A stretch of DNA of 64,000 nucleotides from contig NZ_SWMU01000003.1 of NCBI RefSeq assembly GCF_006120725.1, positions 372,001 through 436,000 of the forward strand. Direction: 5' to 3'. The position numbers and the translations under genes are program-made. The notes under the pieces are model-generated. The model did no database searches, was not told where the DNA came from, and saw only the letters and a program-made list of their open reading frames with translations. This document shows positions 13,525 to 29,153 of this stretch, in pieces (position 1 is the first letter of the stretch; every line of letters begins with the position of its first letter). The DNA is from Mesohalobacter halotolerans. GTDB lineage: Bacteria; Bacteroidota; Bacteroidia; Flavobacteriales; Flavobacteriaceae.

Positions 13525-15009
13525 TTATAGAATTATGGTTTGTAATGCTTGAGGACTGATAGATATTGTTTTAGAAACATTGTTATGTTTTAGATCAAAA
13601 ACTTTAGTCTCTTTATTTGGATTAAAAACAATAACCGCTATGGAACCGTCCGGGTTTTGCGCTGCAGTAACTTGCAAATCTTTGTCTGAAGATTGGTGAT
13701 GTATGCGTTTTGCATCAGGCCTAACATATTTACTAAAATGTGCCATAACATAATACAAAGGAGTGAAATATACCTCATCTTGATCTGGGTCTACAATTAC
13801 TGGTGCTACACACCAGTTTTCAAACCAATTTGGCCCACCTTTTCGGTCTAAAACCATATTCCAGTCAACCCATCCATCTACCCAATTGTTCATCGTACCG
13901 ATGATGTCTCTCGCATATCTGTAAGCTGGACTATACTTTGGGTGAAGATGCTTATTTTCTTCTTTGGCCCAAGTATACCCCCAATCTGTAGCTTCTTTTC
14001 TCCAATACCAATCATCATCTTTCCATACTGGGACTTGAGCATCTATACAGCCTTCCGTTTCTATGAGGTACTTCTCAGGAGCTTTATCATGAGCATATTC
14101 TAACTCATCTTCATAAATTTTAAAAGTACTATCGTACCAATGCACTGCCGTGCCATCAAAATACTTTTTAGAGATATCGTCTCTATACATTTCATCGACC
14201 CATTCTTTTAAGTGTGATCTGTTTTGATCATAACCTAGTATGACTAAATCTCCTTTACCATCTTTTTCAAGTTGAGGTCCTAAGTGATTGACAACAAAAT
14301 CTGTCATTTGTTTAGGTGTATAATGCATACTTTCCCAGTTATTTCCGTTTCCTAAAGGTTCATTTTCAACGGTGAAACCCCAAATATCGATACCTTTATC
14401 TTTGTAAGCATCTACATATTTTGAGAAGAATAGCGCCCAAGTCTCATAATATTTTGGATCAAGTTCTCCTCCAACCCAATCCTCGTTGGTTTTCATCCAC
14501 GGTGGAGCTGTCCATGGTGAAGCAAATATTTTGAAACCATCTTTTGATGCTTTCATGGCATCTTTGATAAAAGGTATTAAGTCGGCAGTATCTTCAGCTA
14601 CACTAAAATTTTCTAGCCTCATATCATCTTTAACAGGTGCATAAGAGTATTGGTCTAATGAAAAATCGCAAGAATTCATATGCGTTCTCGTTAAAGAATA
14701 TCTTGCCCCATCGGGTCCAAAATAGGCATTAATAATTTTATCACGATTTGCTTTACTCAATCGATTGAGTAGATAAGCTGAAGATTCTGTAAAAGCGCCA
14801 CCAAATCCTGTATATGTTTGGTAGGTTTTACTAGTATCTATTGAAATACTTGATGTAGGATTGGCTTGTTTAAATTCTTTAATTTCGGTCAATTTATTTC
14901 CACTTCTCGAAGTTTCTATGACTTGAGCCGAAAGTTGTTTTTCTTCTTTTGAACACGAATTCATTACAATTGCGATAATTAATAATTGGATTAAAATTAA
15001 ATTTTTCAT
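13525..15009 (-). CDS. GH30 beta-glucosidase lipoprotein (probable laminarin debranching beta-1,6-glucosidase)
   Basis: A 494-aa glycoside hydrolase family 30 enzyme with lipobox MNSC (Cys19). GH30 signatures are GFGGAFTESSAY (68-79), the acid/base in TVENEP (Glu217) and the nucleophile in IETEGC (Glu319). A C-terminal beta-sandwich side domain follows the TIM barrel. In marine Formosa species a related GH30 is known to remove beta-1,6-linked glucose branches from laminarin so that GH17 can cut the main chain; the same role is inferred here from the GH16/GH17 neighbours. It is tightly packed, 4 bp before the MFS-GH17 gene and 24 bp after the lipoprotein GH17. Confidence 0.9.
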   Translation of the reverse strand: MKNLILIQLLIIAIVMNSCSKEEKQLSAQVIETSRSGNKLTEIKEFKQANPTSSISIDTSKTYQTYTGFGGAFTESSAYLLNRLSKANRDKIINAYFGPDGARYSLTRTHMNSCDFSLDQYSYAPVKDDMRLENFSVAEDTADLIPFIKDAMKASKDGFKIFASPWTAPPWMKTNEDWVGGELDPKYYETWALFFSKYVDAYKDKGIDIWGFTVENEPLGNGNNWESMHYTPKQMTDFVVNHLGPQLEKDGKGDLVILGYDQNRSHLKEWVDEMYRDDISKKYFDGTAVHWYDSTFKIYEDELEYAHDKAPEKYLIETEGCIDAQVPVWKDDDWYWRKEATDWGYTWAKEENKHLHPKYSPAYRYARDIIGTMNNWVDGWVDWNMVLDRKGGPNWFENWCVAPVIVDPDQDEVYFTPLYYVMAHFSKYVRPDAKRIHHQSSDKDLQVTAAQNPDGSIAVIVFNPNKETKVFDLKHNNVSKTISISPQALQTIIL

Positions 15010-15033: not shown

Positions 15034-16323
15034 TCAATGATTCGGTGTAATCTCTTTTTTCACATCGGGCATACTGACATCAAGCAAAAGGTCTTCTCTT
15101 TGACCGCCGTAAGTTTTCTTAATGGTATTTTTGCCACGTTTTAGGTTCTTAAACAATCCCTGGTCAACTTCATCCCAAAGTACGTATTTGGCTTTTCCAT
15201 CAACGGTAAACAATCCAAAATGGTTTTCTGAATCTAATGGATTATGAGCAGCTTTCCACGGTTCATCAAAAGCTTCAAAATAGAAACATGCAACCTTGTT
15301 CTTTTTAGACCATGCTCTAATTTTATTGTAATACAGGGCCTGCTTATATTCGTCTGTAGCTTTTGAGCCCTTTTCACCGTAAAGATGGTTTGACAAACTT
15401 GCCCAACCTGTTTCCCCAATATGAATGGGTTTTTTAACCCCTAAGCTTTGCATATAATTAGCAACACTGTCGTATTGAGAAACGGCGTAACTCAAGGCTC
15501 TATTCATCACCTTGTCAAGAATTTCTAAGTTTTTTAGTTTTTTTTCTTTTGGCAAAACTCCCCAAAATGTAGGATTGTAATGGGTATCGTGCATCGGGTA
15601 GGTATGTATAGATAAATAGTCTACAGCCCTTAAGAGCTCGTTAAGTTCTGGGGTGTGATATTCTGGACTTCCTCCACCCCAAGAGGCAAAATTGTCTGAA
15701 CTCGTTATCCATAAGTTCTTATCCAGTTGACCTTCTTTTTTTAAGTTTTGTAAGTATTTTACCCATTTCAGGATAATATGTGGCTCTACATAGTATAGCG
15801 CTGCCCATTTTACCATGGCTTCATTTCCTACCGCAATCACTTTGACAATATCTGGATACATATTAGCAAGTTCTACAGCCCTATTAATTTCTTCTTTATT
15901 ATTAACACTTCCAACATTGTGGTTTAAAGGCTTATCTGTCCAGGCGTTTTTGCAATCTATCCAAGCACCTAGCATTACGTACATTTCAAACTCTGGATTT
16001 TCGGACTTGAGCTCTTTGATAGCTTTTAAAACGTTAGCGGCATGTGGCAAGCGTACATTATAAGTCCTTAAAATTTTGATACCAATTGCGTCAAGTATTT
16101 TTAAGTCTTGCTTTAATTGTGCAATTGTGGGTTGTTTATCTCTAGTATTTTGGCGATAACCACCATAAGAAATAGCGAGATAGTCAGGGTTACTTAAAAT
16201 TGCTTTTGCGGTTAGGTCTTTACTTTTTTGATTCTGCATAGGCTTTTGATCTTCACTTTTATTTTTACAAGACACGAGAAGTATCAGGCAAATCAATATT
16301 GGTATTTGAAGTAGAGATTTAAT
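15034..16323 (-). CDS. GH17 beta-1,3-glucanase lipoprotein with an apparent ATT start codon
   Basis: A GH17 enzyme of 429 aa when read from ATT at 16323. That start gives a textbook lipoprotein signal: MKSLLQIPILICLILLVSC with the lipobox Cys at 19. The first standard start codon, TTG at 16296, would leave only nine residues before the Cys and no positive charge. The in-frame stop at 16330-16332 excludes anything longer. Catalytic residues are intact: acid in VIAVGNEAM (Glu168) and nucleophile in HIGETGWAS (Glu304). A C-terminal tail of about 50 residues is extra relative to the other two GH17 domains in the locus, and it is only distantly similar to them. It is anchored in a membrane and should act on laminarin or large oligosaccharides outside the cytoplasm. 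Confidence 0.85.
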   Translation of the reverse strand: MKSLLQIPILICLILLVSCKNKSEDQKPMQNQKSKDLTAKAILSNPDYLAISYGGYRQNTRDKQPTIAQLKQDLKILDAIGIKILRTYNVRLPHAANVLKAIKELKSENPEFEMYVMLGAWIDCKNAWTDKPLNHNVGSVNNKEEINRAVELANMYPDIVKVIAVGNEAMVKWAALYYVEPHIILKWVKYLQNLKKEGQLDKNLWITSSDNFASWGGGSPEYHTPELNELLRAVDYLSIHTYPMHDTHYNPTFWGVLPKEKKLKNLEILDKVMNRALSYAVSQYDSVANYMQSLGVKKPIHIGETGWASLSNHLYGEKGSKATDEYKQALYYNKIRAWSKKNKVACFYFEAFDEPWKAAHNPLDSENHFGLFTVDGKAKYVLWDEVDQGLFKNLKRGKNTIKKTYGGQREDLLLDVSMPDVKKEITPNH

Positions 16324-16324
16324 T

Positions 16325-19300
16325 TTATTTTAATATAGAATTGTCAATCTGAACTTGTATAAGTTTGACTTGATTTGTTCTTTTAAAAATGTCGTTACTG
16401 ATGTCTTTCGGTAGTTCCAAAGTCTCAATAGTCTTTTCTGAGCCATCATTAAATTCTATGATTGTTTTATTTTTGTTCGACTTTTCGTAAATTACAGGGA
16501 CTTGGCAAATGGTAAAAAACAGCTGGTTTGCCTTTAGAGTCAAAGGCTTGACTTCTCTGTCTACCGTGATGTATTTAATTTCTTTATCTTGTGTAAGAAA
16601 ATGTTCTTTTAGAAGAAGGTCTGGTTTGAATTTGAGTTCGGCCTCTTCAAAACATATTCCTAATTCCCCAAATCTACTTATGATGTCTTCTTTTACTTGA
16701 CCAGTCATTCCTGGCTGTTGTGCCCCTTTACCATAAGGTGTATGAGAGTAAGGATCGGTTGGAAATGCGCCATAAAGTTTTGGTGACTTATGAACCCCTA
16801 TTCCTTCATTAATTTCATAATAATGCTCTAGAAGACGTCCAACGGTCTCAGCTGGTTCTTTTTCAGCAATGGCTTTATTACAACATTCTAAAACAGCTAG
16901 TTGTAGTTTTGATACCATGTGCCAATATATTGACCCTAACCCTTCATATCCATAAAATGTCCCTGAGCGACCTGTGAATGCTTTATGGTTAAAAACTTCT
17001 TCAAATATTTGGCATACCCGCTCGAAATCTTTAGATACAAGTGCAGCATACTTCGTATTTTCTAATTCTTTTAAAGCTGTTTTTAAGAAACTGACATTAT
17101 TAAAGTTGCCATTAAAATGGTAATTCCCTAACACATCTTTTTGAATAATACCAACGTGTTTATCTTTCACCAACTTTTGCAACAATTCTGAAGAATTTAC
17201 AGACGCTTCAGGAATTTGATTTCGATCTAAAAAACCTTTAAGATCTTTATTAGGATAAAGCAAGTAACTGTACTGATCCTCCCTGAATAAGGCACTTTGT
17301 TTTAAAGCATCCAAAACAGATACAGCTTGTTTTGAAGTCAAATATTTTGAACTTAATACTGCCACTTGGCCTTCTAGCATTTCTTCGAGATAGGAAATAG
17401 AGAAGCTATTATCTTCAATAGTTAAAAGATTGTACGCATGATAGAGATTATCATTTCTTTTATTATTTGAAATAGAATGTTCTAAGTATTCCAAACTATC
17501 ATCTACAAAAGTTTTCAGAGTTTTTGCTGTGAGTGATTGCTTGTGACCTGAAAATTTGTTGTTATATATTTTCATCCTGAATTCACTAGCTGACTTTCCT
17601 AGCTTATCGACTATATCTTTTCTATCTGAATCTGTGATACTTTTATTTAGTAATGCTTTATGCGATTCAAAAACTGAATTTATTAGGTTAAACATTTGAC
17701 ACACTTCTTCAGATAATTCAAAAGATTGAGCGTCGTCTAAATCCTTAAAGCGTGTTTGAAAAAAAGATAAAAAGCGCCTCAAATAATATAACGTTACCAT
17801 TGAAACACCATTGCCGACCAAAGCATTATTGGCATCATTCCACTCTGGTCTTTGGGTATTCATCCAAATCCCGGCTTCCGGAATAAAATTAGAAAGTTTA
17901 GCAAGTGTGGTAGCTAATATTTTTTCTATAAAATTGACATGGATAATTTGGTTTGACGAGTCTTTCAGTAAGGCGCCATCACCACCTATTTCTTTTCTTA
18001 AATTTCTTATTTTTCGATCTTCTTCAAGGTCGAAATCTATGGTATCTTTTGGATCTTGGACTATATCTTTGTAAGCCTTTATCCTGTAGGGAACATTGGC
18101 ATAAACAAAATAATTTTTACTAAAGAGATATATGAGCTTATCTGGGTTATAATTATTTAAAAACTCTAAAAACTTGAGTAAATATATAATTTGGTGGTCG
18201 CCCCAATATCCAATATAAGACCAAGGATCGTCTGGCTCGATCACCTCCCAGTCAAAACCATCTTTGGTCAATCGATAGGGGTTGTAACCGTCAAAAGTAG
18301 TAGCATTTAAAAATTTAAAAATCATACCATCAATAAATGCCGGGTAAGAATACGCTAAACTTTCCCAATTTTGGAAAATATCACGCCAATTGCCTTCATA
18401 ATCTAAAACCTTAGAACCGTCTTCATCTTTAAGGTTGATTGAGAACTGGTTCCAAGGTCTGCTAGGATCACCGTGTCTTCGGCTAAATTTTAAGGGTAAA
18501 TATTCAATGGTTAACCGTGTAAAATCCGGATCGGTTTCATTTCTAATCAGGGATTTTAAGTTGTCAAGTGTAAAATTTTGTCCTAAGTTGTCTATTTTGG
18601 TAGAAAACTTAGAGTAAACCTTTTTATTGGCATTTTTAATATATTCTTTAAAATCTGAAGAATTGATATGGTAATTGTTATCAAATATACCACCTCTCAT
18701 GATATTAAACATGGTATTTGAGTAATGTCTAATATCACGAAGTTCGTCGCTAGAATATTGGAGCCCATCTGCGGAAGCTGCCAATTTGATGAGATTTTCT
18801 GTACACAGATTAATATTTTCATTTACCTCTGAGATTAGATTTTTTGAATTTAAAATCTGTTGTCTCAATTTGATAACCTGGGCGTGATTGTAGTTTACAT
18901 CTGCTATAATTGACCAATTTTCTGAGGAATTGGCAGAAAGACTTAAGTTTTGATGGGCGAAATACGCACCTCTTTCTGCTTTTATATCAACTTCTTGTTG
19001 TATGGGATTATTTTGTCTAAAATCTTCAAGTTGTAGTGAGGATAATAAATAAATTGGATTTTTTAAGCCTAAACTCCAAATGACATTAGCCTTTAGAGCT
19101 TCACTTGGTTCTGCTTTATCAACAGGAATAGCACTCAATGCAAATATTCCTATTCCAGAAGTTACATCTAATTCGCTTCTCTTATAAGCATCAACCAAAT
19201 TGCTACTGGCTACTTGCAAATCCGGGTCTACTTTTGCTGGTAATATGTTTTGCAAGCCATCCAAACATTCAATTTTAATGGTACTAGTCGAGAGGTTTTT

Positions 19301-19768
19301 GAGTTTTGACTTTTTTATAAATCCAAAATCATCAGCACAAGACCATTGGTAAGAAAAGCTGCACTCTAAATCATGGTTTATTTCTTCAAAGAGTACTTTA
19401 TTTCCATAAATATTTTTATATAAATTCCTTGTAATATTGTAACCATCAACAAATCTTTTAGAAAAAGGTTCCCAAAAATGAGGTTGATTATCTCTGGAGA
19501 CTTTTAAAATTGTTTTACTACCGGTAATATCTGCAAATTCAGTGATTTTATCATCAGTATAATAAGGAAATAACGCGTAAGACGCATTTTTTCTGCCAGC
19601 AGTTATACCGCCATTACTAGACATAAACATCCAGTGATTGGACGGGCTTACAATACTCATAAAGAAAGGACGTAAATTACTGCTATCGGAAATTTTTAAA
19701 TATTTCTCTTTATTGATTTCAACAATTTTGAGTTGCTTTTGATCTGTATCAACAGAGCATTTTGTCAT
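16325..19768 (-). CDS. GH149-like beta-1,3-oligoglucan phosphorylase
   Basis: A 1147-aa cytoplasmic protein without signal peptide. It has the general plan of GH94/GH149 phosphorylases: a large N-terminal beta-sandwich (FFMSIVSPSNHWMFMSSNGG at 35-54), a helical linker, then an (alpha/alpha)6 barrel with EGNWRDIFQNWE (458-469), GYWGDHQIIYLLKF (520-533) and RPEWNDANNALVGNG (640-654). Asp645 in that last motif aligns with the catalytic acid of cellobiose phosphorylases. A late motif QPGMTGQVKEDIISR also fits. The length of about 1.1 kDa-thousands of residues and the GH16/17/30 context favour GH149 over the shorter GH94. It would split laminari-oligosaccharides with phosphate to glucose 1-phosphate, saving ATP. 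GH161 is the main alternative. Confidence 0.72.
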   Translation of the reverse strand: MTKCSVDTDQKQLKIVEINKEKYLKISDSSNLRPFFMSIVSPSNHWMFMSSNGGITAGRKNASYALFPYYTDDKITEFADITGSKTILKVSRDNQPHFWEPFSKRFVDGYNITRNLYKNIYGNKVLFEEINHDLECSFSYQWSCADDFGFIKKSKLKNLSTSTIKIECLDGLQNILPAKVDPDLQVASSNLVDAYKRSELDVTSGIGIFALSAIPVDKAEPSEALKANVIWSLGLKNPIYLLSSLQLEDFRQNNPIQQEVDIKAERGAYFAHQNLSLSANSSENWSIIADVNYNHAQVIKLRQQILNSKNLISEVNENINLCTENLIKLAASADGLQYSSDELRDIRHYSNTMFNIMRGGIFDNNYHINSSDFKEYIKNANKKVYSKFSTKIDNLGQNFTLDNLKSLIRNETDPDFTRLTIEYLPLKFSRRHGDPSRPWNQFSINLKDEDGSKVLDYEGNWRDIFQNWESLAYSYPAFIDGMIFKFLNATTFDGYNPYRLTKDGFDWEVIEPDDPWSYIGYWGDHQIIYLLKFLEFLNNYNPDKLIYLFSKNYFVYANVPYRIKAYKDIVQDPKDTIDFDLEEDRKIRNLRKEIGGDGALLKDSSNQIIHVNFIEKILATTLAKLSNFIPEAGIWMNTQRPEWNDANNALVGNGVSMVTLYYLRRFLSFFQTRFKDLDDAQSFELSEEVCQMFNLINSVFESHKALLNKSITDSDRKDIVDKLGKSASEFRMKIYNNKFSGHKQSLTAKTLKTFVDDSLEYLEHSISNNKRNDNLYHAYNLLTIEDNSFSISYLEEMLEGQVAVLSSKYLTSKQAVSVLDALKQSALFREDQYSYLLYPNKDLKGFLDRNQIPEASVNSSELLQKLVKDKHVGIIQKDVLGNYHFNGNFNNVSFLKTALKELENTKYAALVSKDFERVCQIFEEVFNHKAFTGRSGTFYGYEGLGSIYWHMVSKLQLAVLECCNKAIAEKEPAETVGRLLEHYYEINEGIGVHKSPKLYGAFPTDPYSHTPYGKGAQQPGMTGQVKEDIISRFGELGICFEEAELKFKPDLLLKEHFLTQDKEIKYITVDREVKPLTLKANQLFFTICQVPVIYEKSNKNKTIIEFNDGSEKTIETLELPKDISNDIFKRTNQVKLIQVQIDNSILK

Positions 19769-19812: not shown

Positions 19813-20649
19813 TTATTGTTGTCTTATGTCGTCGAAATAGTATATATCTCCATCACAAGAAGCATCTCGATCAAAATAAATGATTACACTTTTAAAAGTA
19901 TTAGTATTTACATCAGAAAAATCAAATGTTAACTCTTCCCACTCACCGACTTTTGTAATATTTGCAACTCTTTCCTCGGAAGGTTCTGTATCAGGAAACG
20001 GGTTTTTTTCAAGTCTTAATGTAACATCTGTAACTTGATTTTCCGCTAAAACCTTAATCGTAAAAATTTTATTAATATTAGGATCTGCAAAATTCAATGC
20101 AGTATCTAATTCAGCACCTAAACCAGCAAAGGTTTCACACCCAGTGGCTTTTACAAACTGCTGAACTTTACAACTATTATTTACCTCATCAACGACAGGA
20201 TTATCAACTATAGCGCCTGAAGTATTCCCAAAAGCATCAAAAATGACATCTTCTTCTGATAGGAATGTCCAATTGATATCACCATTAGCCGGATCTGTGT
20301 TTTCCTGAGTTTCCTCTACACAGATAGGAACGTCAAACACAAAAGTATCTTCGAAAGTGCTAGAATTATTTTCGTTAAAAGCGGTTAGAACAACAGTAAA
20401 TGTTCCGTTCTCAAAAGTTTTTACTGGGTCAACCAATGTAGATGTTGTACCATCTCCAAAATCCCAAAGATAACTTGTAGCTTCACTTGATAAATTATTG
20501 AAAGTCACAGTTCTGTTGTTGATTTCACTGACAAATCTAGCTTCAAAACCAACAAAGTCAATTCCACTTTCATTGTCTTCACAAGACCATTGGAGTGTGG
20601 ATAAAACAATCATTGCCACTAAAACTAAGCTTCTTTTAAATACTTTCAT
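19813..20649 (-). CDS. PKD-domain lipoprotein with carbohydrate-binding-like C-terminus
   Basis: A 278-aa lipoprotein (lipobox LQWSC, Cys23). Residues about 32-112 form a PKD domain with the core motif SYLWDFGDGTTS. Residues about 125-278 form a beta-sandwich ending in DIYYFDDIRQQ, similar in plan to carbohydrate-binding jelly rolls. PKD lipoproteins beside GH16 enzymes are common in laminarin loci and usually serve as surface glycan-binding proteins. It follows GH16 by 14 bp. The two cysteines in CKVQQFVKATGC could form a disulfide. Binding is inferred; no catalytic motif is visible. Confidence 0.78.
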   Translation of the reverse strand: MKVFKRSLVLVAMIVLSTLQWSCEDNESGIDFVGFEARFVSEINNRTVTFNNLSSEATSYLWDFGDGTTSTLVDPVKTFENGTFTVVLTAFNENNSSTFEDTFVFDVPICVEETQENTDPANGDINWTFLSEEDVIFDAFGNTSGAIVDNPVVDEVNNSCKVQQFVKATGCETFAGLGAELDTALNFADPNINKIFTIKVLAENQVTDVTLRLEKNPFPDTEPSEERVANITKVGEWEELTFDFSDVNTNTFKSVIIYFDRDASCDGDIYYFDDIRQQ

Positions 20650-20663
20650 CTTTTTAAATTTTA

Positions 20664-21518
20664 TTATTCGTAAACTCTAACGTAATCCACAACCATGCTT
20701 TGTGGAAATATAGTTTCTGCATTGGGGTTTCCTGGTAAATTTCCACCAACAGCTACATTTAGGATAATGTAGGATGGTCGGTCATTAAATACCCAAACCC
20801 CTTCTCCATCAGTTTCCTCATCGACATCTTCAGGGGTTAAAGATTGGTACAATTTATCATCGATATAATAGTTGATACGGTTTGGTGACCATTCTATACC
20901 AAAAATATGAAAGCTTGTATCAAATCTATCGCCATCCAATTCAAATTCTTTAGAAATGGACTCGCCGCCACTATAACCTGGACCATGCATGCTCCCAAAT
21001 GCTATTGTAGGTTCATCACCTACATTTTCCATAATATCGATTTCACCAATTTGTGGCCATTCTTCTTCTGCGGTTTCCGGTACACCAAGCATCCAAAATG
21101 CCGGCCAGTAACCTTTGCCGTAAGGTACTTTAATTCGGGCTTCAAAACGACCATATTGTTTTTCAAACAACCCACGAGTAACTAGCCTTGCCGAAGTATA
21201 GTTACTGCCTTGAAAGGATTCTTCTCTGGCTGTAATCACTAAAACGCCATTTTCAACTTTGACGTTTTCGGGTCGATCGGTATAGTATTGAAGTTCATTA
21301 TTTCCCCATCCCGGGATACCTTGTTCGGTTCCATCGCCAATTTCAAAATTCCAATTTTGGGGATTTGGGGCACCATCTTGATCAAATTCATCTGCCCAAA
21401 CGAGATTATTTTTAGTTACTACTTCTTGGGTTTCGTCAAGGTCACAGGCTTGCAATAAAAAGATTGGGACCATGATAAAAGCCGTAATATATTTTTTTAA
21501 AAACTTTTTCATTATCAT
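20664..21518 (-). CDS. GH16 laminarinase lipoprotein (endo-beta-1,3-glucanase)
   Basis: A 284-aa glycoside hydrolase family 16 enzyme with a lipoprotein signal (LLQAC, Cys25). The catalytic strand reads GEIDIMENVG with Glu159 (nucleophile), Asp161 and Glu164 (acid/base); the extra methionine between D and E is the beta-bulge form typical of laminarinases. Substrate-cleft segments WGNNELQYYT and GKGYWPAFWML are present, and the domain ends with VDYVRVYE. It should make the first endo-cuts in laminarin at the cell surface. The N-terminus reads MIMKK, so Met1 or Met3 could be used. Confidence 0.94.
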   Translation of the reverse strand: MIMKKFLKKYITAFIMVPIFLLQACDLDETQEVVTKNNLVWADEFDQDGAPNPQNWNFEIGDGTEQGIPGWGNNELQYYTDRPENVKVENGVLVITAREESFQGSNYTSARLVTRGLFEKQYGRFEARIKVPYGKGYWPAFWMLGVPETAEEEWPQIGEIDIMENVGDEPTIAFGSMHGPGYSGGESISKEFELDGDRFDTSFHIFGIEWSPNRINYYIDDKLYQSLTPEDVDEETDGEGVWVFNDRPSYIILNVAVGGNLPGNPNAETIFPQSMVVDYVRVYE

Positions 21519-21530
21519 TTATTTAAATTA

Positions 21531-22982
21531 TTAATAGAAGTAAACATTATCAATTAAAAAGGCTCCTGAATTAGAAACTAGAATGATGTTTCCTATATTA
21601 TTCAAATTAGGATTTCCAGCTCCTCCTGCTCCTGTAGGTAATGTAAAACTGTTTAAAGGAATATCCAAACCTACCCATTCTTCATCTATCATTTGAGATG
21701 TTGCATTAAAACCTCCAGCTGATCCATCACCAAATCCGTTGTCAATTCCATCAGGTCCATAATCAAGCAATTCTACAATAAAATTTGATCCAGAAGTAAG
21801 TCTTTGAACATCTAAATGGATATGGGTAAAACCAGAGACATCAACAGTATCATTCCACCCTATTCCAACAAAACCAAGGTTTTGATATTCTATTAATTCA
21901 TTTCCGTTAAAGGTTTGTGCTTCTATATTAATTCCATCATTATTGAAAGCGCCAACATCTAAACCATCAATTACAGAATAGAAATCACTATAAATGGATA
22001 AAACATCACTTTCTGGTAACGTCGGGTCTGGCGCATTTTCAAAATCTCCAGTAGTAGTTATTTGAAGTGAACCATCTGCACTTAAATTTCCTACTGTAGC
22101 AGTTATGGTTGCTTCACCTGATGTTAAGACTGTAATCTCTCCGGTATCTGTAACTGTGGCTACATTAGGATTAGAAGAACTAAATGTAAAGTAATTTGTA
22201 GATAGCTGAACAGATTGATTCATTCCTGAAGGGAGGTTAGCTGTATAAGAAATACCTGTGGTTTGAATGGTAGAACCTGAAAAAGTTTCTAAGGTTTCAT
22301 CTACACCATTAAATATTTTTGGCTGTCCTTGACCAAGAGTACCAAGCTTTTCAAATCTAATTTCATCTATCCAAATAGTATAGCCGACGTTATCATCAAA
22401 GGAAGTTGCCACGTCTGGGTTATCATCACCGAGTACATCGAAAGAACCTGCTGCGAAAAGAAACATGCCTTTCTCCTGAACCAACCTAGAAGGATCAGGA
22501 ATTGGGATGATAACTTTTCTCCAATCTGTGGCTAAATCTATAAAAGCACTTACAGGAAATTCATCAATTTCAAAATCAGTGCCGAAACCAGCTTCTAATG
22601 ATCCTGTTAAACTACCTTTTACCCAAAACGTAAGGGCGTCATAACCAGTAAGATTTCTTCCATCGCCTCTATCTTTAAAAATTCCTCCAACAAAGTTACC
22701 ATTTGGGTCATTAGGAGCCGGTACATCTATTCTAATTGATGAAGACCCTAAATAAGCCTCATTATCATCAGTACCGAAAGCCTCAGGGTTTGCACCTCCA
22801 GCAGGATCGAATGATATAAAGAACTCATCGGTTAAGCCAACTGGATTATCGGTATAAACCTCAGCAGTTGTTGGAAATGTTGCTGGAACAGCGTCTTCTG
22901 AAATGTCTCGTTCACAACTTACTGTCATCAAAATTAATAACAATAACCCTAATATTTGAGTATGTTTAATTGTGTGTACCAT
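21531..22982 (-). CDS. Multi-domain surface glycan-binding lipoprotein with BIG2 domain
   Basis: A 483-aa lipoprotein (TVSC, Cys23) with three beta modules. Residues about 40-215 form a jelly-roll that ends NVGYTIWIDEIRFEKLG. Residues about 220-312 form a bacterial Ig-like BIG2 domain (NYFTFSSSNPNVATVTDTG, GEATITATVG). Residues about 328-483 form a second sandwich (DVLSIYSDFYS to GAFLIDNVYFY) that matches modules in two other proteins of this window. No catalytic signature is visible. By position, between GH16 and the hydrolase-barrel gene, it is the likely main glucan-binding protein of this locus, occupying the place where a SusD/SusE-type protein would be expected. Confidence 0.75.
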   Translation of the reverse strand: MVHTIKHTQILGLLLLILMTVSCERDISEDAVPATFPTTAEVYTDNPVGLTDEFFISFDPAGGANPEAFGTDDNEAYLGSSSIRIDVPAPNDPNGNFVGGIFKDRGDGRNLTGYDALTFWVKGSLTGSLEAGFGTDFEIDEFPVSAFIDLATDWRKVIIPIPDPSRLVQEKGMFLFAAGSFDVLGDDNPDVATSFDDNVGYTIWIDEIRFEKLGTLGQGQPKIFNGVDETLETFSGSTIQTTGISYTANLPSGMNQSVQLSTNYFTFSSSNPNVATVTDTGEITVLTSGEATITATVGNLSADGSLQITTTGDFENAPDPTLPESDVLSIYSDFYSVIDGLDVGAFNNDGINIEAQTFNGNELIEYQNLGFVGIGWNDTVDVSGFTHIHLDVQRLTSGSNFIVELLDYGPDGIDNGFGDGSAGGFNATSQMIDEEWVGLDIPLNSFTLPTGAGGAGNPNLNNIGNIILVSNSGAFLIDNVYFY

Positions 22983-22986
22983 GTTA

Positions 22987-25900
22987 TTATTGTTTACCTA
23001 TGTTAAATCTTATATATGTCATAATTTCCCATTCAGAACCATTGGGGAATCCAACGGCACTTAAAGGAGGATCTTGATTAAACGTTCCTAAAGGTGCTGC
23101 GGTTGGTTCGTATCTTGGAGAAAATTCATTGAGCGATCTCCAAATTCCTCTAACACCTACTTGTGTAGTTGGCAGGACATACCATTCTGGTTTTCCTAAA
23201 GTTGTAGATAAATCAAGCATTAATTGTAATGGAAAAGTTAAGTTAAAATCTTGGTGGTAATCAAATGGACCCCAATCATTGACTTTAATATCACCTTTAA
23301 TCCAATAGTTCTTATACCTAACATCTAGATTGGCTCCAAACCTATCAGTAACTAATCGTTCAGAATCACCTCGTGCTTGTCCATTACCGTAGTAAAATGA
23401 TCCTACAATACCTAGTTCAGGACTCAATTTAGAGACTACTCTAGCATGAGCTTCCCAGAGATCTTCAGCGGGAACTGATGTAGCAAAGGCAAAAAATTCA
23501 CGAGTATCTAAAAAACCAATATGAGCATCCATTGTCGTAGGTAAGTGTCTATACACAAATCCAGCGCTCATTGCAAATTCAGCATCTTCAGCTTTGTTGT
23601 TATCCCATTCATACATATAAGTTCCGGGCGTCGGATCGTAGGTGAAAAGGATTTCACCTGCAGTAGTTTTTCTGTTGGCTCTTACAGCAAAAGGGTCATC
23701 GATAAAGTTTCTTAAACGTCCAGGTGCATCACCATTATTAGGCATGGGGTCTACGAGCGGTTCTTGCCACATAAAGTTTGGCGCAATTTGCCATTTACCT
23801 ATATTGTAAGTAAAGCCAGTTAAAAAGTTTTGTTGGTTACCACTACCTGTATCTTTAAGCTTCCATCCCGTAAAGGTCATGGTTTGATCGGCACCACCGC
23901 CGGCCACTAAACCTTGGACTGCACCTTGCGCGTACCAATTAAATTTTCCTGCAGCGTAAGTAATTTTTGCTTTACCGCCCCAGTTGTCATCTGAGTTAAT
24001 TCTGTCTACTACAACATTGCCGTTATCGTCAATATCTTGGTATGTACTGCCATTTAATGGTGAACCACCCCAGATACCACCTAAGGTGAGATCAAAATTA
24101 CCAAACTCTCTTTCTAAGGCAATTGTAGCTCTTTCTGTAGGCCATGGTGGAATTACACCACTTCGAACTTGGTTTTGATCCAGAATACGGCGACCATTCT
24201 CATCAAACTCAATATCGGTTTCAAGGTCTCTGTGATAAATACCCGTGACACCCCATTTACCAATCATTTTAGAATATTTAAACAACATCGTTGGATTGGC
24301 ACCCCACCATAATTGTGGACCTATCGCAGCTTTTAATCCTTCTAGCTCACCTTTGGCATCAATTTCAACACCTGATATGATACCGCCGTAAATGTCTAAG
24401 TTAGGACCGTAATTGGCTTCAGGATATAATCCGAAGAAATCACCTTCATAACCCCAATGGTAGTGACCCGTACGATAAAATCCTCTTAAGTCAAACATAT
24501 CATTCTTCCACTCAAATTCTGCTTGATAAAGATTGAGTCTGTTTACATCTTCTAGAGTGACTTCTCCTTGATCGGTTTGTAACGTGACGATACGGTTTCT
24601 ATTTTCATAGAAAATTTCATTAATAGGATTTTGTGCGACATCACCAACTATGTTGAACTGCACATCGTAACGCACACTAGGTGCAGGTTCTCCACCTATA
24701 CCGATAAAATAGGACTGCATTTGATCAAATCCTAATTGATTTGGAAATGTATTTTCTTCAGGGTTTGGGTTGTCGGGTGTTGTGATAAGGCTACCTCCAG
24801 TATAAAATGTAGACAAATGCGCTGACAATCTTGTAATGCCCAATGTTTGAGAGCCTCCACCGCTCATAGCGGCTTTATCACCTCTGGCTTTTAACACCGC
24901 ATCCATTAAAGAAATATTGTTAAAATAATTATTGACAAAATCTAAATCAACGTCTTCTGCATAGGGATCTAATTTGTGAGCTTCTTTCAAAGCATAATAG
25001 GCGGCTCTAGGATATAAATCATACAAACCTCTTGTATTGGTTGGTCCTTTAGCGCAAACCCCAAACCATTCCTCATTCATGTTGTTTTTGCCTGGTTTAT
25101 GATCTCTACTATAGCCACCATTTTCCCAAGAGGCATTTGAATCATGGACATCGAGATTTTTGGTTTGACCAAATTTCCACCAACCGTCACTAAACTGAAA
25201 AGTAAAGCCACCAATTGAATTCTCTGCTTTTCCTAAACCGGCAGCATTTTGGTAAATATCTTTCCAATTATTGACCATATAGTAAGCTTGGGATTTTTGA
25301 TCTTCTTGATTTTCTAACGCATTGAACGCATCTGCTCCAAATTCAGTAAATATAATTGGTTTTCCGTAAACTTGTTTTACTTTTTCGAAGGCATCACCAA
25401 ACGATTCACCACGATACATATTTGTTCCGTAAATATCGACATCTGGACATTCTTCAGCGACTATTTCTAAAAATAAAACATCACCATTACATATTGCGAT
25501 AGGAACATCATCGTTAATCGATTTAATTTTGAGAGCTGCTTCATTCATTAAATTGTACATCGGTCTTGCTCTATTTTCACCTACAGCATTAATTTGATCC
25601 TCTTCATCTGGAAAATCTTCAGTTTCAGCTCCAGCCCAAAATAAACCGTAGTTGTTTTCATTTCCTAATAAGAACAAAAGCAAACCTTTTGTCCCTTTGA
25701 AGTCATTGGCCAATTTTGTGACTTCAGAGATTAGAAGGTCTTGTGTAGCAGGATCATCGTATTTGGTTACGGGTGTCCAAACGCCATCAATAGTGAGACC
25801 ATATCGCCCAAAAGAATGATTGAGCATGGTGTAAATACCGTAGTTCTCGTAAATGTACTCTATCCATTTTGGCTGTATACCAGTGTAAAGCCTTATAGTG

Positions 25901-26157
25901 TTTACTCCCATATTTTTAAGTAAACCCATTTCGGAATCTAAAGCGGCTTTTATTTTATCGTCAGGTTGATTCCATAAACTGTAGTTAAAATTAGTGCCTC
26001 TAGGGAAATAATCCCAATTCATACCGTTTATCATAAAGTCTTTACCGTCAACTTGTAAAACTTGACCATCTGGACCATCGACAACTCTAACATTATTTTG
26101 AGAATAAACAAAAGCACTTGCAAATACGAAAGCAAGTATGTAATAATAGCTTTTCAT
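22987..26157 (-). CDS. Clan GH-A glycoside hydrolase fused to a predicted outer-membrane beta-barrel
   Basis: A 1056-aa exported protein (signal peptide ending near AFVYSQ). Residues about 28-400 form a TIM-barrel hydrolase related to GH2/GH5-type clan A enzymes: MNWDYFPRG, GVNTIRLYTG, acid Glu167 in FLLGNENNYG and nucleophile Glu272 in IIFTEFGADAF. From about residue 490 to the end the sequence changes to alternating amphipathic strands with aromatic girdles and tight turns, for example FLTGFTYNIGKWQIAPNFMW, FGANLDVRYKNYWIKGDIKV and a final EIMTYIRFNIG. That pattern is typical of an outer-membrane beta-barrel. It is the first structural gene of the glucan locus, and no SusC is present. The fold of the second half is inferred by eye; the exact GH family is open (GH158 or GH2-like are options). 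Confidence 0.75.
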   Translation of the reverse strand: MKSYYYILAFVFASAFVYSQNNVRVVDGPDGQVLQVDGKDFMINGMNWDYFPRGTNFNYSLWNQPDDKIKAALDSEMGLLKNMGVNTIRLYTGIQPKWIEYIYENYGIYTMLNHSFGRYGLTIDGVWTPVTKYDDPATQDLLISEVTKLANDFKGTKGLLLFLLGNENNYGLFWAGAETEDFPDEEDQINAVGENRARPMYNLMNEAALKIKSINDDVPIAICNGDVLFLEIVAEECPDVDIYGTNMYRGESFGDAFEKVKQVYGKPIIFTEFGADAFNALENQEDQKSQAYYMVNNWKDIYQNAAGLGKAENSIGGFTFQFSDGWWKFGQTKNLDVHDSNASWENGGYSRDHKPGKNNMNEEWFGVCAKGPTNTRGLYDLYPRAAYYALKEAHKLDPYAEDVDLDFVNNYFNNISLMDAVLKARGDKAAMSGGGSQTLGITRLSAHLSTFYTGGSLITTPDNPNPEENTFPNQLGFDQMQSYFIGIGGEPAPSVRYDVQFNIVGDVAQNPINEIFYENRNRIVTLQTDQGEVTLEDVNRLNLYQAEFEWKNDMFDLRGFYRTGHYHWGYEGDFFGLYPEANYGPNLDIYGGIISGVEIDAKGELEGLKAAIGPQLWWGANPTMLFKYSKMIGKWGVTGIYHRDLETDIEFDENGRRILDQNQVRSGVIPPWPTERATIALEREFGNFDLTLGGIWGGSPLNGSTYQDIDDNGNVVVDRINSDDNWGGKAKITYAAGKFNWYAQGAVQGLVAGGGADQTMTFTGWKLKDTGSGNQQNFLTGFTYNIGKWQIAPNFMWQEPLVDPMPNNGDAPGRLRNFIDDPFAVRANRKTTAGEILFTYDPTPGTYMYEWDNNKAEDAEFAMSAGFVYRHLPTTMDAHIGFLDTREFFAFATSVPAEDLWEAHARVVSKLSPELGIVGSFYYGNGQARGDSERLVTDRFGANLDVRYKNYWIKGDIKVNDWGPFDYHQDFNLTFPLQLMLDLSTTLGKPEWYVLPTTQVGVRGIWRSLNEFSPRYEPTAAPLGTFNQDPPLSAVGFPNGSEWEIMTYIRFNIGKQ

Positions 26158-26360
26158 GAGAGTAAAATTAATGATTCATTAACAAACTTAAACGTTTTCG
26201 TTAATATTTCAATAATAAAAACAATTACAAAAAATATACATTGAAGTTAAAATACAATCAATTGTAAAATACTGGTTTAATGTGTTTTATGAAATATACA
26301 AAATTATTACTGCCATTATGTATAGCTATTGTAGTGTATATTTTAACATACGTAAAGTTG
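26158..26360. promoter_or_regulatory. Control region of the glucan operon with candidate operators
   Basis: This 203-bp gap separates the regulator from the first structural gene on the same strand. It contains a dyad, AACG-TTTT-CGTT (26191-26202) with TTAA on both flanks, and a palindrome TACAATCAATTGTA (26253-26266). A minus-strand TAATTTTG (26299-26306) matches the TAnnTTTG -7 consensus but lies 142 bp from the start codon. It is the natural place for activation by the adjacent LuxR-type regulator. No terminator for the regulator gene stands out. Confidence 0.4.
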
Positions 26361-29153
26361 CTACAAGCTCAATATATAGGTGGTTAAACTCTGATTTCTG
26401 CTTAAATTCATTTTTTTACGCAATCGATATCGTTTAATCTCAACACTTTTTGAAGAAATATTAAACAGAGGTGCTATTTCTTTAGATGTTAGATTCAATC
26501 GTAAATAAGCACAAAGTTTTAACTCATTGGGGGTCAGTTTAGGATGTCTAGCTTTAAGCTTTTTAAAGAAATCTTTATCCGCATTATTAAAAGCTTCTTC
26601 AAAAAATTTCCAATCGTCTGTGTTATTTAAATTATTATTTATTGTATTTAAGACTTTTTTAATGACTTTGTTTTTGCTTTGTATAGGTTTTAAGTCTGAT
26701 TTTATTTGAGATAGAAACTCATTTTTCTTTACTAAACTCATGGTAGCTATCGCGAGTTCTCTATTTTTATTTTCTACATCAAGTTGAAGTTTATCATTTT
26801 TTATTTTCATAATTTCTTTCTGAGATTCTAGGTCTTTGAGTTCTAGTTTCCTTTCAGCTTTCTTTTGCAACTTAATTTTCTTTTTCTTGTAGTTTCTTTT
26901 ATAAAAATTGTGTACCAGGAATAAAACTAGTGCTAAACACAATATGTAAAGGATAATCATAAGATTTGACAAGTAAAATGGTCTTTCTATATAAAAAGAA
27001 TAGGACAAAACTTGACTTAAGTTTTCTTTTCCTATTCTACTTCGCATCAAAAAGACATAGTCTCCATAGGTTAAATTTTTGAAATTTACTTTGCCAGTTG
27101 TTTTCCAAGAACTCCAATTGTCATTGTAACCTTTAAGTTTATATTGATATTCACTTTTTAATAATGGATTATAATTAAGAGCAGTATATTTGAATGTAAT
27201 ATTATTAAGTTTATTTTCAATGACATTATCTTCTGTTTTTGAGGTCTGTTTATAAACACTCTCTCCATTTTTATCATTTATCATCACTGATTTTAAGTAT
27301 ATTTCACTTTCAAAATTTGAAATATTTGATGTGTTAATTTTTAAGTACCCATTACTTTTACCAATAAGGTATGTATCAGAATCTATTTGACTTACATTTT
27401 CATATCCCGAAATCTGTTGTCTTGCATCAACGTTAATAGGTATTTTTTTAATGTTGTATTCTCCTTTTACAGAGCTCATAGAGATTTGATTAATGTCGGT
27501 TTTAGTAAATAACCAAACCTTACTATCTCTAGTTTTTACGAGTCTCCCGAAATTGTAGTTTGAAGGGCTATAAAGGTTTGACAAAATGGAATCCTTTTTA
27601 AATGAAGCAGACTTCTTGTCGTAATAAAAAATGCCTTTTTTGTAAGCATATAGAATTTTATTTTTCATTTTAATAATAGAAGAAAATAACCCCTTTTCTA
27701 CAGAATTATCTTTTACTATTGATGCAACTTGAGTAAGAGCAGCATTTAATTGGAGTTTATAAACCCCTTTATACTCATGATTTACGATAATACTAGTCGA
27801 ATCAATAAATTCAAAATATTTTGTAGAAATATCAAACCCTTTAATTTTTCTGTCGTGATACCACTTATCATTTTGATATTTTAATACATTAAGTCCTTCG
27901 TAATTCCCTGTAAATATTGTTTTGTCATCCACAGCCTTAAACATCCAAGTTCCAGGTGAGTCGGTCAATAGGCTTGCTTTAGTATTTGAAATCTTAAATG
28001 TACCGTTGTGATGACCACAAAACAAATGGTCATTAAACTTAAATAAAGACCAAACCTGACCTTTTGTGCCTTTTATTATTTTGTACTTATTATTATCATA
28101 GTAAAACAAACCTTGGTTAGTTCCCAAATAAAGTGTACCATTAAATTTGATTGAGGCATATATTGTCCCCAATTTACCATTTTGATCATTGAATATTGAA
28201 ATGCTTGAATCGACACTAACACAATTGATTCCATTGTCAAGACCAAGCCAAAGTTTTTTATCTCTATCTTGAAATAAACTAAGTACCGTGTTATTGCTTA
28301 AGGAGTTTTCCTGATTTAAATAAAGTGAAACTTTGTCTTGAGACAATTTAATCAGTCCTTGTGAAATGGTTCCTAAATAGATGTCTCCATTGTCTTTTTG
28401 TAAACTACTATAAACTGATATTTCAGATAGCAATGAATTAGTATTTTCGTCAAGTTTATATAAAGCATTATCGCTAAGCCTTACTATACCATTGTACTGA
28501 GTTTGAGCATACAACTGATTGTTTATTTGGTACAGGTCAATTAATACAATATTTTCAAAAAACGGTGTTGTATTGACAATTATCTTTTCTCCGTTAACTT
28601 GTTTATATAAGCCGTTATTTTTTACGTGATAGTATAAAACATCATCTTTGACAACCATCTTTGTGATTTCATTTTTCGGTGAAATGATTTCAAAAGATTT
28701 TTTAATTAAATTATAGATATAGATGGCATCTAAAGATTGAAAAATGACATAATTATCAAAAGATGTGATATTCCAAAATTGTTCATCTTCTATGAGCTCA
28801 AGGTTCTTTGAAAGTGAATGGTATTTATACAAACCATCATTGTTTTTTCTCCAAACACCAAATTCCATATAGGCTCCGCTGTAGACATCGTCTCCTATGG
28901 CATATACAGATCTTAAAATGGTATTGTTTGGCGAGCCTAACAATTCCCATCGTTCACTGTCATATTTAAGGAGTCCTTTACTATTCGCAAAGAACATGGT
29001 TCTATCTTCAGTTTGTGTAACAGACCAATTTTGATTATCAGCAGCGTATACATCTGGTGTATATTTCGCCACTGGCGGAATATCTTGAGCATAATTGTTA
29101 TAAAAGCTAAAGCATAATGCTAAAAGAGATATTTTAAATAATCGATTGATCAA
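26361..29153 (-). CDS. Propeller / Y_Y_Y sensor-regulator with LuxR-type HTH (SusR-like without kinase)
   Basis: A 930-aa one-component membrane regulator. After a short signal-like segment, residues about 25-630 form periplasmic beta-propeller repeats of the two-component-regulator-propeller type (FFANSKGLLKYDSE, LYLGTNQGLFYYD). A Y_Y_Y domain follows (FKYTALNYNPLLKSEYQYKL, GYNDNWSSW). One transmembrane helix lies at about 728-748, then a long lysine/glutamate coiled coil (750-820) and a LuxR-type helix-turn-helix (LTPNELKLCAYLRLNLTSKEIAPLFNISSKSVEIKR, cited in two parts: about 873-892 and 893-909). No histidine-kinase or receiver domain is present. It probably senses oligosaccharide in the periplasm and activates the glucan operon. 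The start is TTG at 29153, forced by the in-frame stop at 29157-29159, which is also the stop of pepT. Confidence 0.85.
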   Translation of the reverse strand: MINRLFKISLLALCFSFYNNYAQDIPPVAKYTPDVYAADNQNWSVTQTEDRTMFFANSKGLLKYDSERWELLGSPNNTILRSVYAIGDDVYSGAYMEFGVWRKNNDGLYKYHSLSKNLELIEDEQFWNITSFDNYVIFQSLDAIYIYNLIKKSFEIISPKNEITKMVVKDDVLYYHVKNNGLYKQVNGEKIIVNTTPFFENIVLIDLYQINNQLYAQTQYNGIVRLSDNALYKLDENTNSLLSEISVYSSLQKDNGDIYLGTISQGLIKLSQDKVSLYLNQENSLSNNTVLSLFQDRDKKLWLGLDNGINCVSVDSSISIFNDQNGKLGTIYASIKFNGTLYLGTNQGLFYYDNNKYKIIKGTKGQVWSLFKFNDHLFCGHHNGTFKISNTKASLLTDSPGTWMFKAVDDKTIFTGNYEGLNVLKYQNDKWYHDRKIKGFDISTKYFEFIDSTSIIVNHEYKGVYKLQLNAALTQVASIVKDNSVEKGLFSSIIKMKNKILYAYKKGIFYYDKKSASFKKDSILSNLYSPSNYNFGRLVKTRDSKVWLFTKTDINQISMSSVKGEYNIKKIPINVDARQQISGYENVSQIDSDTYLIGKSNGYLKINTSNISNFESEIYLKSVMINDKNGESVYKQTSKTEDNVIENKLNNITFKYTALNYNPLLKSEYQYKLKGYNDNWSSWKTTGKVNFKNLTYGDYVFLMRSRIGKENLSQVLSYSFYIERPFYLSNLMIILYILCLALVLFLVHNFYKRNYKKKKIKLQKKAERKLELKDLESQKEIMKIKNDKLQLDVENKNRELAIATMSLVKKNEFLSQIKSDLKPIQSKNKVIKKVLNTINNNLNNTDDWKFFEEAFNNADKDFFKKLKARHPKLTPNELKLCAYLRLNLTSKEIAPLFNISSKSVEIKRYRLRKKMNLSRNQSLTTYILSL

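Follow-up and report, generated by a model that had tools for sequence, protein, structure and literature searches.

A clan GH-A glycosidase fused to a predicted outer-membrane beta-barrel in laminarin operons of Bacteroidota: a candidate glucan importer

Introduction

Laminarin accounts for 5-15 Pg a year, among the largest marine carbon flows (PMC6794258; this and the other papers are cited from the parts of their text that were available). Its uptake by Bacteroidota is mostly interpreted via SusCD pairs. We describe here a gene of Mesohalobacter halotolerans, found in a stretch of 64,000 nucleotides (contig NZ_SWMU01000003.1, positions 372,001 to 436,000; hereafter the window, in whose numbering all coordinates are given), that joins a glycosidase of glycoside hydrolase (GH) clan GH-A to a predicted outer-membrane beta-barrel. 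This enzyme-barrel fusion is real, widespread and, as far as searches show, overlooked. Computation shows that the two halves are fused, that one has a GH-A fold with catalytic residues that do not vary and the other a barrel fold, and that the gene belongs to a conserved operon. We hold it probable, with moderate confidence, that the protein is an outer-membrane glucan importer cutting its cargo on arrival, an interpretation in which the side of the membrane, the substrate, import and its direction are deduced.

The closest described systems compare with the fusion as follows: (i) like a SusCD pair, it provides a large outer-membrane barrel early in an operon, with a lipoprotein gene adjoining. 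The SusC barrel has 22 strands; unlike SusCD, the fusion has neither a TonB plug nor a SusC profile match, its partner is a Big_2 protein and not SusD, and the enzyme lies in the same chain; (ii) the fimbrial ushers FimD and PapC share a 24-strand barrel aligning over nearly the full range (Z 12.3-14.2). Ushers secrete pilus subunits and carry a plug and other periplasmic domains, whereas the fusion bears an enzyme; (iii) AlgE, Occ/OprD porins and ScrY are outer-membrane channels for carbohydrates or small molecules, AlgE and Occ being the best fold matches of the fusion. Their barrels are smaller and without catalytic domain, and ScrY has a periplasmic N-terminal extension; (iv) GH157, GH158 and GH2 enzymes have the clan GH-A fold of the fusion but not its barrel; (v) an MFS-GH17 fusion, described in Formosa (marine Flavobacteriia), was proposed to couple hydrolysis to uptake (PMC6246565). 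Like the present fusion, it joins an enzyme to a transporter, in a laminarin locus of the same kind, and one MFS-GH17 is found in the present operon. However, the MFS transporter is alpha-helical and located in the inner membrane, whereas the fusion has a predicted outer-membrane beta-barrel.

Fusions between outer-membrane pore proteins and other domains are described as rare (PMC4827864). Loci with GH16, GH17 and GH30 are variant B laminarin polysaccharide utilization loci (PULs; PMC6298971), and GH149 clusters without susCD have been noted (PMC5827456). In the literature searched, with most subscription journals outside the search, the available texts gave no description of a GH-A enzyme-barrel fusion or of a barrel on the enzyme.

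Results

The fusion gene

An uninterrupted frame of 1056 codons plus stop fills positions 22987-26157 on the minus strand. The single frame had been reported, without its strand, in a preliminary description of the window. The features of the gene are:

22987..26157, minus strand: whole enzyme-barrel fusion gene, 1056 aa (open frame and full-length homologues)
26095..26157, minus strand: signal peptide, residues ~1-21 (MKSYYYILAFVFASAFVYSQN), without lipobox (Sec-type, by eye; cleavage site presumed)
24868..26094, minus strand: clan GH-A enzyme domain and two C-terminal helices, residues ~22-430 (fold matches; stand-alone homologues end near 430)
25657..25659, minus strand: Glu167, predicted acid/base (invariant 68/68; role predicted from clan GH-A)
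25342..25344, minus strand: Glu272, predicted nucleophile (invariant 68/68; role predicted from clan GH-A)
24841..24867, minus strand: short flexible Gly-rich linker, residues 431-439 (predicted local distance difference test, pLDDT, of block 431-440 = 53)
22999..24840, minus strand: predicted outer-membrane beta-barrel of 24 strands, residues 440-1053 (model, alignment, fold matches, hydropathy test)

The protein ends in ...YIRFNIGKQ, so that the motif RFNIG, previously given as the end of the last strand, is present but is followed by two more residues, KQ. No Pfam or NCBIfam model reaches its cut-off on the protein, the nearest below it being Glyco_hydro_cc, Glyco_hydro_2_C and beta-glucuronidase; the domain pair has no named family in these two collections, as had been supposed. 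Ahead of the start codon by 25 bases, TAAGTTTG is found at 26183-26190 on the minus strand, which we take to fit the Bacteroidota -7 promoter motif TAnnTTTG.

The barrel half

Both halves were modelled, as the preliminary description had proposed. The C-terminal half is predicted to be an outer-membrane beta-barrel of 24 strands spanning residues 440-1053. The amphipathic strands described earlier thus belong to a predicted barrel, with a length of about 614 residues and not about 560. The barrel folded alone (residues 402-1056, 67 sequences) has again 24 strands, with a mean pLDDT of 74.2 and a predicted template modelling score (pTM) of 0.75; closure of the barrel and its number of strands are judged from secondary structure and fold alignment.

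All 50 listed rows for this half are outer-membrane barrels, both in Foldseek (best E 1.2e-9) and in VIA-align. The listed types are BtuB-type, OprC, chitoporin, MOMP, OprD/Occ, AlgE, LamB and the ushers FimD and PapC (row 8xcj_A, a chain of a LamB-phage complex, was taken for LamB from its length). A soluble fold was rejected, with no soluble sandwich or propeller among the 50 listed rows of either ranking. VIA-align is led by AlgE (Z 15.8), then Occ porins. The 24-strand ushers cover nearly the whole barrel range (9fxs_D: Z 14.2, 354 residues), and TonB-dependent transporters likewise align across it. Foldseek TM-scores are modest (0.22-0.36 by query length), thus no solved barrel is a close copy.

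For the strands of the predicted model, hydropathy alternation is 2.42; shuffling these strands gives 1.38 ± 0.21, and windows taken from the enzyme half give 1.10 ± 0.16 (0/5000 as high in either case). The connecting segments between these strands alternate long and short, with means of 23.7 vs. 4.7 (5/100000 permutations as extreme): odd segments have 19, 34, 33, 7, 30, 29, 26, 30, 28, 7, 11 and 30 residues, even segments 2, 3, 6, 2, 2, 2, 2, 20, 2, 2 and 9. Four presumed outer loops, rich in aromatic residues, have an identity of 0.92, 0.99, 0.88 and 0.96, vs. 0.74 for the strands.

Pfam contains no family for the barrel (67 members searched at E<=1). Weak matches of single barrel halves, mostly to DUF6882 (7/67, best E 0.017), were not accepted as real. 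A PDB sequence search with the barrel profile gave no relatives, and the lone match of the single-sequence search (E 0.94) was judged meaningless.

The enzyme half

In the AlphaFold2 model of the whole protein (68 sequences, mean pLDDT 77.9), a TIM barrel extends to about residue 400 and is followed by two helices to 432 (405-413 and 417-432) before strand 1. The top VIA-align match of this half is GH157 9g4n (Z 28.2, 310 residues, root-mean-square deviation (rmsd) 2.9); GH2 enzymes are level with it (3hn3, Z 27.4) and GH158 9oro is near the top (Z 26.8, rmsd 5.8). Among the matches listed, GH157, GH158 and GH2 rows have Z 25.6-28.2 and a sequence identity of 12-19%, those to GH157/GH158 being at 17-19%. 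A profile of 32 enzyme halves matches in the PDB GH158 6PAL (E 5.3e-4) and 9ORO (E 1.6e-3), and GH2 chains at E 1.6e-3 and up. In Pfam, 29/32 halves match the GH2 TIM-barrel profile PF02836 at E<=1 (best 7.9e-11; window protein 18.3 vs. the 21-bit cut-off) and 4/32 the GH72 profile (best 8.6e-6). The N-terminal sugar-binding and Ig-like domains of GH2 gave no Pfam match; the enzyme begins at residue ~22.

Asn166, Glu167, Asn246, Tyr248, Glu272 and Trp326-Trp327 are invariant in 68/68 aligned homologues. A TIM barrel with two Glu, predicted to be catalytic, after strands 4 and 7 is what defines clan GH-A, and the assignment made earlier from Glu167 and Glu272 is borne out by fold and invariance. 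Both GH157 and GH158 include enzymes active on laminarin, and several of their PDB entries are titled as laminari-oligosaccharide complexes or endo-laminarinase. From these fold neighbours and the operon context, we infer that the substrate would be beta-1,3-glucan.

Occurrence and evolution

Within the genus, another genome carries the fusion at 82% identity; among named relatives, those of Psychroflexus are nearest (80-86%). The search for the same domain pair in other genomes, suggested in the preliminary description, was positive. Of 299 sampled family genomes, the present one among them, 94 show a match of some kind, 63 a close relative and 55 the whole fusion in one frame (counted from the listing). 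In 31/299 there is a distant enzyme relative only (27-35% identical), mostly as frames of about 340 residues. In a sample of 395 genomes of the phylum, the barrel profile has matches in 35, from 11 families (hand count), and the enzyme profile in 57, some of the latter weak.

The barrel match is whole within one long frame in 32/35 genomes. G405 is counted among them: its match carries a stop flag, yet the sequence reads through as a single frame of 1048 residues. In the three others the match is split, cut or a remnant. A barrel without enzyme occurs in 0/35 barrel-matching genomes, although a very distant free barrel could escape the profile. The idea of a free barrel module was rejected since the enzyme profile has a match in 35/35 as well. 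An accidental fusion or an error of assembly was likewise rejected, since this junction recurs across many genera, including one-contig genomes.

Two full-length records were found in a plasmid collection, i.e., Persicobacter (58.6%, unannotated) and Bacteroides finegoldii (53.5%). The latter is annotated «glycoside hydrolase family 2 TIM barrel-domain containing protein»: the one annotated homologue encountered is thus named for its GH2 TIM barrel only, and not for any soluble domain in the other half. Such an annotation can conceal a membrane pore. The B. finegoldii record is labelled plasmid but, as valine-tRNA ligase and rpsA are also encoded on it, probably represents a chromosomal contig. 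Its locus contains a DUF6377 protein, the fusion, a Big_2 protein, GH16 and BglX, with no SusCD annotated. In IMG/VR viral contigs, 60 stretches matched a pattern and none was confirmed.

Eleven genomes without intact barrel were examined: nine have an enzyme frame of ~360-480 residues, one a GH16 fusion and one a broken copy (L192). One of the nine (G411) retains after the enzyme a 63-residue barrel remnant with stops. Of 80 enzyme domains placed in a tree, 69 are fused to the barrel and 11 are not (two of the 11 are long rows of uncertain placement); well-supported branches force at least seven state changes. Repeated loss is the simplest reading because the barrel is never found free. The barrel-less enzymes (L183-L190, L200) belong to clusters with SusCD or a LacI-like regulator (by eye). 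In L191 (4379-6436), a GH16 domain takes the barrel's place in a 685-residue GH-A + GH16 fusion, within a laminarin cluster.

The operon and the Big_2 lipoprotein

On the minus strand, the genes run in the order regulator, fusion, Big_2 protein, GH16, PKD protein, GH149, GH17, GH30 and MFS-GH17; past the latter are found GH17, a carbohydrate-binding module (CBM) protein with a type IX secretion system (T9SS) tail, and GH3. As described earlier, the fusion heads the operon, being the first gene after the regulator and on the same strand (gap of 203 bp to the regulator, 4 bp to the next gene). The neighbours are:

26361..29153, minus strand: regulator, with Reg_prop, Y_Y_Y and LuxR-type helix-turn-helix (HTH) (Pfam; HTH match just under the cut-off)
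21531..22982, minus strand: putative lipoprotein with Big_2 domain, likely surface glycan-binding partner (lipobox VSC by sequence; Pfam Big_2)
20664..21518, minus strand: GH16, likely surface laminarinase, lipobox QAC by eye (Pfam 7.7e-24)
19813..20649, minus strand: PKD-domain protein, lipobox-like WSC by eye (Pfam)
16325..19768, minus strand: GH149 beta-1,3-glucan phosphorylase, no signal peptide by eye (NCBIfam 1754.9 bits, cut-off 1150)
15034..16296, minus strand: GH17, lipobox VSC by eye (Pfam)
13525..15009, minus strand: GH30 enzyme (Pfam 1.9e-75)
11034..13520, minus strand: MFS transporter fused to GH17 (Pfam MFS_2 and GH17)

The enzyme content of a laminarin PUL with GH17/GH30 (variant B of PMC6298971) or GH149/GH30/GH17 (variant 1 of PMC10108472) is present (GH16, GH17, GH30, GH149, MFS-GH17; Pfam/NCBIfam). 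A homologue of the Big_2 lipoprotein comes next after the fusion in 79/80 loci, the remaining one being cut by the contig end; with a stricter position test (start beyond the end of the fusion) it follows in 76. By contrast, it is matched in 0/11 genomes without intact barrel, within the 3-27 kb examined. Barrel and Big_2 lipoprotein seem to travel together.

Relationship to SusCD

This genome has five SusC proteins above the cut-off, none of them in the window. SusC profile TIGR04056 gives 25 listed places in the genome, the fusion gene not among them, and none in the NCBIfam scan. No TonB-type plug domain stands at the N-terminus of the fusion, which is a GH-A enzyme by model and fold. The window has no susCD pair, i.e., no SusC above cut-off and no SusD match in a search made with PF14322 alone; its sub-threshold SusC match is another transporter, at about 46.9 kb. 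Near the genome's SusC proteins lie alpha-glucan-type genes (by eye) or a GH5-CBM6 enzyme, and in other cases no glycosidase is obvious. A second candidate locus for beta-glucan (L195) consists of SusCD, a PKD protein and a GH5 with CBM6, CBM35 and a T9SS tail. The GH5-CBM6 type is predicted to target laminarin (PMC6298971, PMC6794258).

Sixty-six homologous loci with at least 9 kb upstream were surveyed. In 41, no more than 600 bp separate the regulator from the fusion and no SusC was found in between; neither SusC nor a near regulator is found in 4; and SusC is upstream in the same direction in 21, either between the regulator and the fusion or at loci where no regulator was found. Matches to the SusC queries have about 30% identity, so that some SusC genes were possibly missed. 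That the fusion replaces SusCD as a rule is too strong, both being present in these 21 loci. The place expected for the uptake component, claimed in the preliminary description, therefore holds as far as the fusion is first in a laminarin operon, but is not exclusive, given SusC in 21 loci and SusCD pairs elsewhere in the genome. These same facts speak for the fusion being an accessory to a SusCD importer: small products would diffuse through its pore, or the pore would be a way out, with SusCD responsible for most of the uptake. We regard this as unlikely: no SusC was found upstream in 45/66 loci, and none in the examined surroundings of the copies in B. finegoldii and Persicobacter.

Anchor, surface display or import

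Another possibility, of the same low probability, is that the barrel only fixes the enzyme to the outer membrane, or is a platform for surface lipoproteins, without transport. Membrane anchoring does seem useful: among the eight stand-alone enzymes whose N-terminus is complete, at least four have a lipobox by eye. However, a barrel of 614 residues is costly where a lipid suffices, and the four presumed outer loops conserved above the strands suit a selective channel better.

The side on which the enzyme lies can be approached from the topology. In the barrel model and alignment, a long segment comes after strand 1, two residues after strand 2, and so on in alternation. Short turns of outer-membrane barrels usually face the periplasm. 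Strand 1 begins on the short-turn side and would thus begin at the periplasm, regardless of the exact strand count. The blocks of residues 401-430 have pLDDT 91, 93 and 79 with the enzyme vs. 66, 56 and 47 in the barrel-only model; the helices thus appear to pack on the enzyme. Stand-alone enzyme homologues retain this region, ending near residue 430. If the helices belong to the enzyme, about 10 flexible linker residues remain, seemingly too few to cross the barrel. From topology and short linker, the enzyme most likely faces the periplasm, and the surface hydrolase envisaged in the preliminary description is not supported.

The barrel could instead carry the enzyme outside like a type V autotransporter, whose order is also N-terminal passenger and C-terminal barrel, with two helices here ahead of strand 1 and laminarin cut on the surface, but this is quite improbable given the apparent packing of the helices on the enzyme and the short linker; in addition, none of the ten Pfam families that 67 members match at E<=1 is an autotransporter family.

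Import by the fusion would proceed as follows. The putative surface lipoproteins (Big_2 protein and GH16) would bind laminarin and trim it to pieces able to enter. The C-terminal half would insert in the outer membrane as a roughly 24-strand beta-barrel, and the N-terminal glycosidase, hanging on the periplasmic side via the short linker, would cut the beta-1,3-glucan oligosaccharides emerging from the pore. GH17, GH30 and the inner-membrane MFS-GH17 fusion would act afterwards.

Several results weigh against this import model: (i) SusC accompanies the fusion in the 21 loci mentioned and, given SusCD beside GH5-CBM6, the window operon may not be the sole laminarin route here; (ii) the full-length pTM is just 0.54, i.e., the mutual placing of the halves is not predicted; (iii) one even segment has 20 residues; (iv) when the presumed outer loops are pooled, their conservation equals that of the strands (0.74 each); (v) the tree suggests that the barrel was repeatedly lost while enzyme and cluster stayed, hence that it is dispensable in some lineages.

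More tentatively, and with some doubt, the fusion may represent a class of Bacteroidota glycan importers, from ocean to gut, independent of SusCD and free of a TonB plug, made of a 24-strand pore, to which a periplasmic glycosidase is tethered, and a surface lipoprotein dedicated to it. Hydrolysis of the cargo as it arrives would make uptake one-way and would pay for it without TonB energy. If the fusion imports glucan, SusCD-free loci now outside PUL definitions would be complete, estimates of laminarin use based on SusC/D would miss them, and an enzyme-coupled importer would stand at each membrane (fusion and MFS-GH17).

Probable copies of the fusion gene in published loci

Loci of a similar type, variant 1, are reported with high bloom expression in PMC10108472; one is listed as GH149-GH0-GH30_1-GH17 and one is without susCD. 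In Muricauda, a «GH2 beta-glycosidase» is reported upstream of GH17-GH30-MFS genes, with GH16 and GH149 (PMC13188888); the words outer membrane and porin are absent from the main text of that paper. From gene content and order we infer that the «GH0» of the former and the «GH2» of the latter are the fusion gene.

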